This document shows, in pieces, positions 54,551 through 63,661 of a stretch of DNA of 64,000 nt. Source of the stretch: a virus; the IMG/VR virus record IMGVR_UViG_3300030104_001945, positions 1 to 64,000 of that record; one strand, given 5' to 3'. Numbering within the stretch: position 1 is the first letter of the stretch; each line of letters starts with the position of its first letter. The notes under the pieces were generated by a model. That model worked only from the letters and a program-made list of their open reading frames with translations, was not told where the DNA came from and did not search any database. Both the position numbers and the translations under genes were made by a program.

Positions 54551-54829
54551 ATGAGCAATATATTTTATGCGAATAAAGAATTATTACAGACGTACAATAA
54601 ATATAACAGAGATAAATTTAATCATGGTTACTCTGATAAAGAATTTGAAGATTTAGACGAGACAGTTATGTATCCAGTATCGAGAGTTGATAAAAGTAAA
54701 AAAGATAAGAATCATAGAGTTTACCAGTTTTTATTGAACGATAAGGGTAAATTCTGCGTTTTCTATTTAGATGAAGATAATTCAGCGAAGCTTCAGTCAA
54801 TGGAAATACCGAACAAATTAATTAACTAA
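54551..54829 (+). CDS. hypothetical 92-residue protein
   Basis: ATG 54551 preceded by TAGGAGAAAA. SNIFYANKELLQTYNKYNRDKF, then VYQFLLNDKGKFCVFYLDEDNSAKLQ. Not recognised; ends immediately before a repeated promoter-like element. Confidence 0.65.
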   Translation: MSNIFYANKELLQTYNKYNRDKFNHGYSDKEFEDLDETVMYPVSRVDKSKKDKNHRVYQFLLNDKGKFCVFYLDEDNSAKLQSMEIPNKLIN

Positions 54830-54830
54830 T

Positions 54831-54872
54831 TTGTTTAACGTGTTTTAAAAAAGTTTATTATAAGAAATAACC
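54831..54872 (+). promoter_or_regulatory. repeated early promoter element, copy 1
   Basis: TTGTTTAACGTGTT at the left, AAAGTTTATTATAAGAAATAACC at the right (broken here into TTTATTAT and AAGAAATAACC). Same ordered blocks recur upstream of 59908, 60846 and 61786. TTGTTT and TATTAT can serve as -35 and -10 boxes with an 18-19 base spacer. Precedes a strong AGAAAGGAAAA ribosome site. Confidence 0.68.
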
Positions 54873-54892
54873 ATAAAGAAAGGAAAAACATT

Positions 54893-55911: not shown

Positions 55912-56368
55912 TGACATCTTAGAAATCCCTGAGTTCTTACGCAACTTAGATGACGGACCGAAAGTTAAAAGAGTATGGGTCAATCCTATTACTGAAACGA
56001 AAGAGACAAAACGAGATGATGGCACTATTCTCATTCGACATATCACGATAGAAGAAGGATATTATATGGTCGATGGAGTAAGAGAGGAGAAAGAAAAACC
56101 TAAAACTAAGTGGACTGATAAAAAACCTAAGAGGAGTAATGGCAAGAAACGAGAGCAGTGGCTCACGGACATCATATGCAATAATCCTGACTTAACTCGT
56201 GTCGAACTTTATAAACATATTAGAGATAATCAATTAGAGCCTCATGAAGGATTTGTTAATCATAAGAATTTCCAAGCACATTTAAGAAGTATTTTGATAA
56301 GATTAAAAAAGAATGGTATCTTAAGGTTAGAGAATAATAGATATTTAATTAGAAGCAGAAAAAAGTAG
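55904..56368 (+). CDS. putative winged-helix DNA-binding protein
   Basis: 154 residues. An acidic N-terminus and charged linker precede a C-terminal domain: QWLTDIICNNPDLTRVELYKHIRDNQ, then HKNFQAHLRSILIRLKKNGILRLENNRYLIRS, the helix-turn-helix-wing outline of a winged helix. A regulator of early genes or the neighbouring RNA region is possible. Not assigned further. Confidence 0.65.
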   Translation: MSDDILEIPEFLRNLDDGPKVKRVWVNPITETKETKRDDGTILIRHITIEEGYYMVDGVREEKEKPKTKWTDKKPKRSNGKKREQWLTDIICNNPDLTRVELYKHIRDNQLEPHEGFVNHKNFQAHLRSILIRLKKNGILRLENNRYLIRSRKK

Positions 56369-56700
56369 CGTTTGACTAGTTGTCACCGGTAACTGCTTCG
56401 AGCAAGGGGACTACGAGTGTTTCTTGATCAGATGGCTCATCCCTTTGCGAAGCTCGTAGTAAGCGGCACTGAGGGCCTTTCTATAAACGAGGATAAATAA
56501 ATAAGCAAAGCGCAGAACCTTACTTGAGCAGCTGAGACACTGCGCAAGGTAGAGTGGAGTTCAAGTCCCTGATTGACACTTGCTCCACTCATTAAAGGGC
56601 GACTGAGAGTTTGTACTTGGGAGAAATCCTATTGGCACAGCTTCACTGTAAGGAGTACATTCACCACTAGAAGGGGAGGTCGCCCTTAAACAATAGAAAG
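56369..56700 (+). ncRNA. structured RNA region, about 330 bases without a gene
   Basis: Much richer in G+C than the flanks and dense in long-range pairings. GCTTCG 56395-56400 pairs with CGAAGC 56448-56453; AAGGG 56404-56408 with CCCTT 56441-56445; ACTACGAG 56410-56417 with CTCGTAGT 56453-56460. GCGCAG 56510-56515 pairs with CTGCGC 56540-56545; ACCTT 56517-56521 with AAGGT 56546-56550. GAGTGGAG plus CAAGT (56552-56566) pair with ACTTG plus CTCCACTC (56578-56590). AAGGGCGAC 56595-56603 pairs with GTCGCCCTT about 56679-56687. Twice, the pairings interleave (first half 1, first half 2, second half 1, second half 2). It may be a regulatory or trans-acting RNA; no known class is recognised. Confidence 0.72.
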
Positions 56701-56708
56701 GAAAAAAT

Positions 56709-56993
56709 ATGCCTAATGATGATTTAGATTTAGTTGATAAAATTAGAGAGTACATTGAGTATGATGTAAGAGATGGTTCACAAACAGATAATCTTTATTT
56801 TGGTAAAGATAAAGGTTCTATTTATTGGGTACCTGGAGCTGAATGTTGGTGTTATTTATGTGGAGATAAGACTGAATGGGGCCAAGTTGATGATTTATTA
56901 GATGAGATAGATGATAAAATAATTTTATTTTATTATGAAGAAAATAAAGAGGATATTGCCGATTGGGCGAGAGGAAGAGGATATACATTGTGA
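56709..56993 (+). CDS. acidic early protein, unknown
   Basis: 94 residues, AGAAAGGAAAAAAT before the ATG. Asp/Glu-rich; contains YIEYDVRDGSQTDNLYFGKDKG and a Trp/Cys segment YWVPGAECWCYLCGDKTEWGQ. First gene after the structured RNA region, so its expression might be controlled by it. Confidence 0.68.
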   Translation: MPNDDLDLVDKIREYIEYDVRDGSQTDNLYFGKDKGSIYWVPGAECWCYLCGDKTEWGQVDDLLDEIDDKIILFYYEENKEDIADWARGRGYTL

Positions 56994-58686: not shown

Positions 58687-58691
58687 CCTGT

Positions 58692-58890
58692 ATATATAGA
58701 GAGCGAAATGATTTTACTGATTTTTTATTTTACTAAATGGCAATCCCTAATCTCAATCCTCAATTCTCTATATCCACTACTAAAAACTAGGGATTACTAG
58801 TGATATTTACAAGTAATCCCTCTAATCTCCCGAGGCTAGACGCAATCTTAGGTCATTAACTCTGAGTTGTGAATTGGTCTCTATATAATA
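58692..58890 (+). ncRNA. gene-free stretch with long-range pairing, possible RNA element
   Basis: TATATAGAG at 58693-58701 pairs with CTCTATATA at 58879-58887, enclosing about 180 bases. Inside, AGGGATTACT 58789-58798 pairs perfectly with AGTAATCCCT 58812-58821 over a 13-base loop. No open reading frame of note. Could be an untranslated RNA or a long leader; weaker evidence than for the other two RNA regions. Confidence 0.45.
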
Positions 58891-58901
58891 AAGGAAAAAC
58901 A

Positions 58902-58967
58902 ATGGATTTTTTTACTATTTTGACTATATTAATTGTCGGCGGTATCATATTAATGTTTAATTCGTAA
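58902..58967 (+). CDS. 21-residue membrane micropeptide
   Basis: ATG 58902 after AAAGGAAAAACA. MDFFTILTILIVGGIILMFNS is one hydrophobic helix. A strong ribosome site is the main evidence. Confidence 0.42.
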   Translation: MDFFTILTILIVGGIILMFNS

Positions 58968-59031
58968 AATAAAGGTATTAAATGGATTTAATAAATTTTA
59001 TAATTAATTATACGCAGAAAGGAGAATCAAT

Positions 59032-59621: not shown

Positions 59622-59846
59622 ATGACTATACAAAATAAAGATTACGAAATAGGATCCATTCAAGTCAAAGATAACGATTACATTGGAGAAGTTCAAGATT
59701 ACAGATGTCCAAGTTGTGGAAACTATTCTGTTATTGTAGATACTAGTGATAAAGATAGTGAATCTAATGGAAAACCTGGACACGAAACTTGTTTACATAA
59801 TTGCGGGCCTTTATCGTTAAGCAGACTTTTAGCAATAGGAAGTTAA
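59622..59846 (+). CDS. zinc-finger-like small protein
   Basis: 74 residues after AGAAAGGATATT. YRCPSCGNYSVIVDT (C-x2-C) and a later TCLHNCG (C-x3-C) could form a zinc site around an acidic DKDSES loop. Unknown role. Confidence 0.62.
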   Translation: MTIQNKDYEIGSIQVKDNDYIGEVQDYRCPSCGNYSVIVDTSDKDSESNGKPGHETCLHNCGPLSLSRLLAIGS

Positions 59847-59849
59847 TTT

Positions 59850-59890
59850 TGGTTTAACTTGTTATTAAAAAGTTTATTATTAATAATAAC
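59850..59890 (+). promoter_or_regulatory. repeated early promoter element, copy 2
   Basis: TGGTTTAACTTGTT, then AAAAAGTTTATTAT and TAATAATAAC. The right part, GTTTATTATTAATAATAAC, is an almost perfect palindrome. Shares all blocks with copies 1, 3 and 4. Confidence 0.7.
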
Positions 59891-59907
59891 AATAGAAAGG
59901 AAAACAT

Positions 59908-60745: not shown

Positions 60746-60785
60746 CTGAAATAAATACATATATAAGAACACAATTATAAATAAA

Positions 60786-60826
60786 TTGTTTAATCGTGTT
60801 CTTAATAGTTTATTATTAAGAATAAC
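60786..60826 (+). promoter_or_regulatory. repeated early promoter element, copy 3
   Basis: TTGTTTAATCGTGTT, then TAATAGTTTATTAT and TAAGAATAAC. Same block order and spacing as copies 1, 2 and 4. Confidence 0.7.
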
Positions 60827-60845
60827 AAAAAGAAAGAAGAACAAA

Positions 60846-61429: not shown

Positions 61430-61723
61430 ATGACACCAGAAGAAATACAAAATCTAGTTCTCAGTGCATCTAAACAGCTAGACGATATTGATGTAAGTAA
61501 AGCAAAAGAAATAGGAAAAGGTCGAAGTGCTCAAGAATATTCATTTATCGTCTATCACGATAAAGCTCCTCTTACACCTAAAACTCAATTAGGAGAGGAT
61601 ATCACAATCGTAGATATGTATGATGGTTGTTTCAATGTTATATTCTACATTAGAACACACATACCATTTAAAGACATTAAAATCTATATGGACAGATACG
61701 AAGATATCCTTATAAATAAATAA
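61430..61723 (+). CDS. hypothetical early protein
   Basis: 97 residues from ATG 61430; an upstream in-frame start at 61406 lies within the preceding gene. TPEEIQNLVLSASKQLDDIDVSKAKEIGKGRSAQEYSFIVYHDK, then ITIVDMYDGCFNVIFYIRTHIPFKDIKIYMDRYE. Not recognised. Confidence 0.63.
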   Translation: MTPEEIQNLVLSASKQLDDIDVSKAKEIGKGRSAQEYSFIVYHDKAPLTPKTQLGEDITIVDMYDGCFNVIFYIRTHIPFKDIKIYMDRYEDILINK

Positions 61724-61724
61724 A

Positions 61725-61765
61725 TTGTTTAATTATGTTTTAAAAAGTTTACTATTAATAATAAC
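61725..61765 (+). promoter_or_regulatory. repeated early promoter element, copy 4
   Basis: TTGTTTAATTATGTT, then TTAAAAAGTTTACTAT and TAATAATAAC. One T-to-C change in the TATTAT box relative to the other copies. Confidence 0.68.
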
Positions 61766-61785
61766 AAAAAGAAAGCGAGAATGAT

Positions 61786-63290: not shown

Positions 63291-63299
63291 ATAATTACA

Positions 63300-63331
63300 G
63301 GGGGCGTCACACCGGCGCCCTCGTTTTTTTT
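63300..63331 (+). terminator. strong Rho-independent terminator
   Basis: GGGGGCG 63300-63306 pairs with CGCCCTC 63316-63322 (one G-T), then G and eight T residues. The strongest canonical terminator in the window. Confidence 0.92.
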
Positions 63332-63366
63332 ATTGAGCATTGAGCCACAGCACTCCGCCGCCCTGC

Positions 63367-63412
63367 GGGTGAGTTGAGCATTAAGCTTCGGGTGAGTTGA
63401 GCATTAAGCTTC
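63367..63412 (+). repeat. tandem 23-base repeat, two copies
   Basis: Two perfect adjacent copies (63367-63389 and 63390-63412), each beginning GGGTGAGTTGAGC and ending TTAAGCTTC. A related TTGAGCATTGAGCC lies just upstream at about 63333. No coding function; could be a protein-binding or packaging-related site. Confidence 0.85.
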
Positions 63413-63415
63413 GGT

Positions 63416-63437
63416 TATATATGCATAAGCATATATA
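63416..63437. other. perfect AT-rich hairpin
   Basis: TATATATGC 63416-63424 pairs with GCATATATA 63429-63437 around ATAA. It marks the abrupt right edge of the G+C-rich island. Function unknown; no gene lies in 63291-63560. Confidence 0.55.
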
Positions 63438-63560
63438 TAGATAATAAAAAATAGAGATAATATATTATAAAATACTTAAACCAAACTAAAATTTTAACGA
63501 TTTTATAGTTGTTTATAGTGATTTTACGATAGATTATTAATAGATATAGAAAGGAAAATT

Positions 63561-63617
63561 ATGACGATTTTAATTATAATTATCGCTTATTTTATAGTTT
63601 TAAGCTTTACTTTTTAA
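63561..63617 (+). CDS. 18-residue hydrophobic micropeptide
   Basis: ATG 63561 after AGAAAGGAAAATT, an excellent ribosome site. MTILIIIIAYFIVLSFTF is a single hydrophobic helix. May be a leader or membrane micropeptide; too short for confidence. Confidence 0.4.
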   Translation: MTILIIIIAYFIVLSFTF

Positions 63618-63661
63618 TAAATAATCTATAATAATATAGATAGAAAGGAGAAATATAGAAA

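Follow-up and report, generated by a model that had tools for sequence, protein, structure and literature searches.

Does a short gene-free stretch of a marine phage genome encode a structured RNA, and if so, which of its parts are shared with other phages? The question was posed by a window of 64,000 nucleotides, taken from an IMG/VR virus record that is 64,233 bases long. The phage carries genes for a terminase, a portal protein, a primase, a helicase, and an A-type DNA polymerase, and the region of interest lies approximately 4 kb downstream of the polymerase gene (Table 1). An initial annotation had described a gene-free, G+C-rich segment holding a dense structured RNA with two interleaved pairings. 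We compared this region with related loci to determine which of its structural elements are shared.

The region and its genomic setting

The gene-free, G+C-rich character of the region was confirmed. Positions 56369-56708 contain no gene and, with a G+C content of 0.46, are the richest of the four gaps in the window that reach 120 nt, the other three ranging from 0.22 to 0.29. The 154-aa ORF upstream of 56369 has no significant family match. The ribosome-binding site AGAAAGGA closes the region right ahead of the ORF at 56709. The flanks of the window copy contain no terminator, and promoter matches in them occur at chance level only. Taken as a whole, the gene-free region folds no better than expected (z -1.10, with 14 of 100 shuffles equally good), and its sub-regions 56500-56592 (z -2.68) and 56590-56692 (z -2.11) fold better than shuffles.

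Other parts of the window also deserve mention. Two of them are gene-free: positions 58687-59031 (345 nt, G+C 0.29, fold z -1.94) contain the inverted repeat GGGATTACTAGTGATATTTACAAGTAATCCC, and 63291-63661 (371 nt, G+C 0.29) fold with a z of -2.62. An AT-rich element of 60 nt, partly near-palindromic (TTATTATTAATAATAAC in one copy), is present four times, at 54822-54881, 59841-59900, 60777-60836, and 61716-61775. The copies run into ribosome-binding sites, and the element is possibly a phage promoter or operator.

Table 1 Positions and support of the features in the structured region
Feature	Position in window	Strand	Details
Structured non-coding region	56369..56708	+	Bounded by 154-aa ORF stop and 94-aa ORF start; homologous region in L004, L082, L083
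Hairpin A1	56402..56448; arms 56402-56409 / 56441-56448	+	32/32 cells paired (4 sequences); 4/8 pairs changed both sides
A1 outer stem, in window	GCTTC 56395-56399 / GAAGC 56449-56453	+	
A1 apical loop TTGATCA	56424-56430	+	Conserved 4/4 while surrounding bases change
Core stem P2	CTCGT 56453-56457 / ACGAG 56487-56491	+	35/35 cells paired (7 contigs); 2/5 pairs changed both sides
Conserved core strand	56484..56523	+	Common to L098, L108, L134; ~90% over 39-40 nt, E ~1e-6 to 1e-7; profile E to 3e-22
16S-like stretch AAGCAAAGCGCAGAACCTTAC	56503..56523	+	20/21 identical to Sulfitobacter, Paroceanicella, Azospirillum 16S rRNA
Hairpin B1	CTTGAGCAG 56523-56531 / CTGCGCAAG 56540-56548, loop CTGAGACA	+	33/36 cells paired; 2/9 pairs changed both sides
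Hairpin B2	GAGTGGAG 56552-56559 / CTCCACTC 56583-56590	+	32/32 cells paired; 3/8 pairs changed both sides
Module C	56595..56687; outer stem AAGGGCGAC 56595-56603 / GTCGCCCTT 56679-56687	+	Fold z -2.11
Module C inner stem	GTACT 56613 / AGTAC 56654	+	
Crossing pair, module A	ACTACGAG 56410-56417 / CTCGTAGT 56453-56460	+	Window only; no above-chance partner in L004, L082, L083
Crossing pairs, module B	56510..56550: GCGCAG 56510 / CTGCGC 56540, ACCTT 56517 / AAGGT 56546	+	Complete in window only

Nested hairpins conserved in related contigs

Contigs were retrieved via polymerase and neighbour-gene searches, and the same intergenic region was recognized in L004, L082, and L083 (the last being the same as L002). 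Across stems A1, P2, B1, and B2, 11 of 30 pairs have changed on both sides and 132 of 135 cells are paired; most stems rest on four sequences, namely the window, L004, L082, and L083, two of which are close. Compensatory change of this kind across homologues was the check named in advance for the dense structured RNA, and that proposal was borne out by it. As judged from this comparison, the nested hairpins are real, because they are conserved through large sequence change, and the stretch is under selection on pairing.

When arms were mixed between relatives, the paired cells numbered 74 of 96 for A1, 36 of 48 for B2, 42 of 54 for B1, and 136 of 160 for P2. Each sequence was also folded alone. 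This recovered A1 in all four (L083 with a variant extension), and B1 and B2 came back in each of the sequences folded for them, namely the window, L004, and L082. P2, folded from the core piece alone, was recovered in L134 only and not in the window, L098, or L082. Hairpin B1 has one A-G mismatch in three sequences, and G-T pairs are present inside the conserved stems A1 and P2.

Module C is missing from L082 and L004. The elements TGARAG, CACC(G)ACTAG, and AAGGG(G)AGG, set in a stem of 9-12 bp, are found in module C and also in L140, L147, L149, L150, and L188; this kinship motif was written after inspection of both sides, and shuffles gave 3 matches at the 6-pair threshold. In the more distant contig L005, the upstream ORF is homologous and the intergenic hairpins are different. 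The same intergenic place in L005 (7914-8160) folds strongly (z -3.75), and no similarity between its sequence and that of the window RNA could be detected.

The interleaved pairings

All of the arms named in the initial annotation are present in the window, as are its two six-base palindromes, TGATCA at 56425-56430 and CAGCTG at 56529-56534. Two successive modules were said to share one unusual topology. For module B this is true in strict form (6 + 5 Watson-Crick pairs, gaps of 1 and 0), which is present a single time in the region and was not reproduced by any of 200 dinucleotide shuffles; module A depends on a G-T pair plus a 4-nt gap or bulge. Under a relaxed criterion that admits G-T pairs and the spacing of module A, the window holds 2 modules, and at least one is found in 64 of 100 shuffles. 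The supposed improbability of the doubling was not upheld, because 25 of 100 shuffles hold at least two modules at the latitude that module A requires.

The crossing stems had been regarded as the essence of the RNA, a view that the relatives contradict: these stems are lost in L004, L082, and L083, so that crossing stems conserved in homologues, as in a classic H-type pseudoknot, were not found. For the crossing half of module A, shuffled loops were as good in 495 (L004), 196 (L082), and 480 (L083) of 500 trials, and L004 keeps the 3' half CTCGTAGT while its crossing partner is gone. In module B, the GCGCAG:CTGCGC pairing comprises 6 of 6 pairs in the window, 5 in L082, 4 in L083, and 2 in L004, and ACCTT:AAGGT comprises 5 of 5, 4, 4, and 3, respectively. 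The two palindromic loops fared differently. TTGATCA is retained in all four sequences, whereas CAGCTG lies partly within stem B1 and is missing from L004.

These results bear on a switch, built from two interleaved pseudoknots or from mutually exclusive folds. Such a switch would draw on the exact pairs in the window, on the strict module B that no shuffle reproduced, and on the two competing partners of CTCGT at 56453, which are ACGAG at 56413 and the conserved ACGAG at 56487. Given that the relatives lose the crossing halves and that a quarter of the shuffles contain two modules at module A's latitude, we consider it very unlikely. The interleaved knots are probably outside the shared fold.

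A core strand shared with other phages

One part of the RNA, a central core strand, recurs in otherwise unrelated phages; it is predicted to be largely unpaired and flanked by separately folding hairpins. Positions 56484-56523 are the sole DNA of the window that matches L098, L108, and L134 at an E of 1e-3, L098 and L108 being 98.7% identical to each other. Pattern scans and a profile search found the core segment CTCGT...ACGAGGATAAATAA.TGAAGCAAAGCGNAGAACCTT in these three contigs. The profile search over 214 locus entries returned 14 entries from 7 contigs at E ~1e-14 or better, and the next seven matches after these core copies were all 16S genes (E 0.06-0.4). Among 30 pattern-scan stretches that were inspected, core flanks occurred only in the three known relatives, L098, and L108, and the other stretches, which have no core flanks, look like chance.

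Outside these contigs, the core pattern had 0 matches in the genome collection. Annotated phage records gave no match for the window or L082 regions and matches at chance level only for the L134 region, and no match to the region was found in E. coli.

Likeness of the core to 16S rRNA

Part of the core resembles a segment of 16S rRNA in the helix 31 region. In a panel of nine 16S genes, the 20/21 match of the window corresponds to E. coli 16S positions ~964-984, and L082 is identical to Radiobacillus 16S at 21 of 22 positions. These scores were reached by 0 of 300 panel shuffles and, in a larger run, by 1, 0, and 0 of 1500 for the window, L082, and L004. The corresponding Gumbel p values are 5.9e-4, 3.4e-5, and 1.7e-4, for a stretch that was picked post hoc and for four phage sequences that are not independent. 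Window and L082 differ within the stretch (GCGCAG and GCGAAG), and both variants are natural within the 16S panel. The stretch is absent from L005, where 174 of 300 shuffles were as good. The 21-base match in the core is suggestive of a relation to 16S rRNA.

Several results speak against mimicry. Flanking similarity to 16S rRNA is marginal, with 134 (window), 30 (L004), 14 (L134), and 12 (L098) of 2000 shuffles as good, and single flanks gave no significant 16S match. The variant with the A that the phage has instead of C gave 0 matches in the genome collection, where some rRNA may be masked or absent. The phage RNA has no counterpart to the upstream half (UUCG) of 16S helix 31.

A larger resemblance was tried and rejected. 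The elements TTGATCA..ATGGCTCA, GCAGC.CG.GGTAA, TGAGACA, and AAGTCCC gave rise to the idea of a 'mini-16S' with helix 1, the 530 loop, helix 34, and the 3' end in order, which was attractive by eye and failed a colinear chain test. In this test the 16S-like stretch was held fixed and the flanks were shuffled; 10, 31, 19, and 3 of 100 shuffles were as good for the window, L082, L083, and L004 under one penalty, and 42, 51, 48, and 4 under a second.

The 16S likeness of an otherwise real RNA may also be due to chance, and the core may have a different partner, for example a protein of the phage or a second RNA copy contacted via the TGATCA loop. The post hoc choice of the stretch and its failure to extend past 21-22 nt agree with this, and the palindromic loop, kept in 4 of 4 sequences, could kiss. 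Shuffle p values of 6e-4 to 3e-5 and the occurrence of both the window and L082 variants in natural 16S genes argue in the opposite direction. We rate a chance likeness at slightly below an even chance.

Two further observations concern 16S matches in viral records. Twenty-two Gordonia phage records match the E. coli 16S rRNA segment 901-1201 at E up to 10, with no match to 951-1031. The IMG/VR 'viral' contig L125 has an apparently genuine 16S rRNA gene segment at 105-122 and is probably host sequence.

RNA arrays upstream of primase genes

The contigs L098, L108, and L134 belong to another phage group; immediately before a primase gene, each carries a non-coding stretch of ~600-950 nt. A homologous primase, that of L138, has relatives in Pelagibacter phage HTVC033P (44.5% identity), the Roseobacter CRP phages, and Puniceispirillum phage HMO-2011. 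Among 80 primase loci, this upstream place is mosaic. The flanking pieces of L098 are adjacent in L174, where the ~420 nt between them are missing. L136 and L135 share the downstream pieces of L134 and not the core, the L135 contig beginning beyond the core, one short piece apart, and L149 shares other array pieces. Fold z values below -2 were obtained for 22 of the 29 primase-upstream stretches tested (of 80 fetched; stretch length 330 nt, or 600 nt in L098) and for 1 of 6 coding controls (+0.8 to -2.2). Isolate phages with a related primase have no such array, as indicated by HTVC033P (z -1.40), CRP-3 (z -0.95), and HMO-2011 (~85 nt only).

Recurrent modules can be recognized in the arrays. 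An H-type pseudoknot module, GGC-NN-GGGUAGU-GCC followed after 11-77 nt by ACUACC, was found in 14 places compared to 1 in shuffled loci. The contigs are L136, L138, L141, L142, L145, L166, L167, L169, L171, L172, L174, L176, L188, and L098, and the third loop is very variable. A linker, AAGTTTARAGTTT, lies between hairpin modules in L140, L166, L170, L173, L134, L098, and L108 (7 occurrences, some in near copies, versus 1 in shuffles).

In L138, a promoter with 12 of 12 matching positions (TTGACA-17-TATAAT) ends 8 nt before the pseudoknot module, an arrangement seen in 0 of 200 shuffles. The T-run of a terminator lies 262 nt further on, where a hairpin followed by eight T stands before the primase. 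Positions 4681-4978 of L138 thus apparently form a complete RNA gene of ~260 nt, read from its sequence signals as a promoter, a 5' H-type pseudoknot, further hairpins, and a terminator, followed by the primase. L138 is the only one of the 14 instances with a convincing promoter before the module.

This array is relevant to a cis-acting role for the window RNA, in which a leader or intercistronic element would act through its hairpins on the small downstream ORF, at the level of read-through, stability, or translation. The region does end at the ribosome-binding site AGAAAGGA before the ORF at 56709, with no terminator after it. However, a cis role is less likely because the relatives carry different downstream genes (a 94-aa ORF in the window and another ORF of 65 aa in L082 and L004), and the comparable array in L138 is equipped with a promoter and a terminator of its own. 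We regard such a role as rather unlikely.

Rho-independent-like terminators were found in 27 of 46 loci, drawn with near copies included from the 80 primase loci and scored by a looser criterion devised here; a simple terminator scanner found none in three loci. Terminators after the arrays of other phages speak against an element that works at the DNA level (for example, a replication origin or a protein-binding region with single-strand hairpins), and so do the RNA-like G-T pairs in stems A1 and P2. Although covariation alone does not separate RNA from single-stranded DNA, and a location ~4 kb downstream of a DNA polymerase gene would suit such an element, we consider it quite improbable.

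Proposed role and significance

The reading that we prefer, and to which we give an even chance, is a trans-acting non-coding RNA of the phage, in which separately folding hairpins surround a conserved core that a protein would recognize. The RNA would be transcribed along with the surrounding + strand genes and would act in trans. Its core, GAAGCAAAGCGNAGAACCUU, nearly reproduces the 16S rRNA sequence near E. coli 963-984, and its binding partner would be a protein of the host or the phage, most likely one with specificity for small-subunit rRNA. The RNA could then be a decoy or a recruiter. The hairpins, which vary in sequence and not in form, may be scaffolding or carriers of further activities, and the open conserved core would be the part read by the protein.

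A broader proposal, which we hold to be unlikely, is that HMO-2011-related phages and the window phage carry an exchangeable small-RNA island, one cassette of which would show a copy of a 16S segment and so capture a host ribosome-associated factor during infection. Mosaic arrays of self-folding RNA cassettes would then be swapped between phages like accessory genes. The HMO-2011/HTVC033P-related group is described as dominant and broadly distributed (PMC9038755). If the 16S mimicry is true, binding to 30S components would provide a concrete handle on the role of such RNAs.

Comparison with known RNAs

Known families offer no direct counterpart. Searches with 4227 Rfam families, among them GOLLD, ROOL, and OLE, gave 0 matches for the window and 18 loci at gathering thresholds and for 56300-56750 and the L098 region at an E of 10, and a scan of L134 gave only four sub-threshold matches to miRNA, snoRNA, and sRNA families. 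ARAGORN detected no tRNA in the window or 24 loci, and the element did not match its tRNA or tmRNA model. Titles and opening parts of abstracts in the open-access literature on GOLLD- or ROOL-like RNAs, modular phage RNAs, rRNA mimicry, and HMO-2011 ncRNAs describe no such element.

The helix 31 region of 16S rRNA is nearly identical to the phage core over 21-22 nt; unlike it, the phage RNA has no helix partner and no wider 16S similarity. Type III toxin-antitoxin RNA (ToxI) is a short structured RNA. The window RNA is like it in this respect, and pseudoknots occur in the related primase-upstream arrays, but the RNA has no tandem repeat and no toxin-like neighbour. The marine phage leader RNAs manA, wcaG, and PhotoRC-II are likewise structured and show covariation, and they precede metabolic or photosynthesis genes (PMC2864571). 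Their gene context is different, and none of them matches the window.

GOLLD and ROOL are also phage-encoded, highly structured non-coding RNAs with conserved and variable parts. PMC12286853 reports that many GOLLD RNAs exceed 800 nt, that GOLLD and ROOL are often near tRNA genes, and that GOLLD bound ribosomes in pull-downs. The window RNA differs in its length of 330 nt, in having no Rfam match, and in having no tRNA genes nearby. A feature of GOLLD and ROOL is a homo-oligomeric RNA cage, and the palindromic TGATCA loop in the window would be compatible with self-contact. As a structured phage RNA without an Rfam relative, common to otherwise unrelated marine phages, the RNA described here adds to the few phage RNAs of which GOLLD and ROOL are examples.
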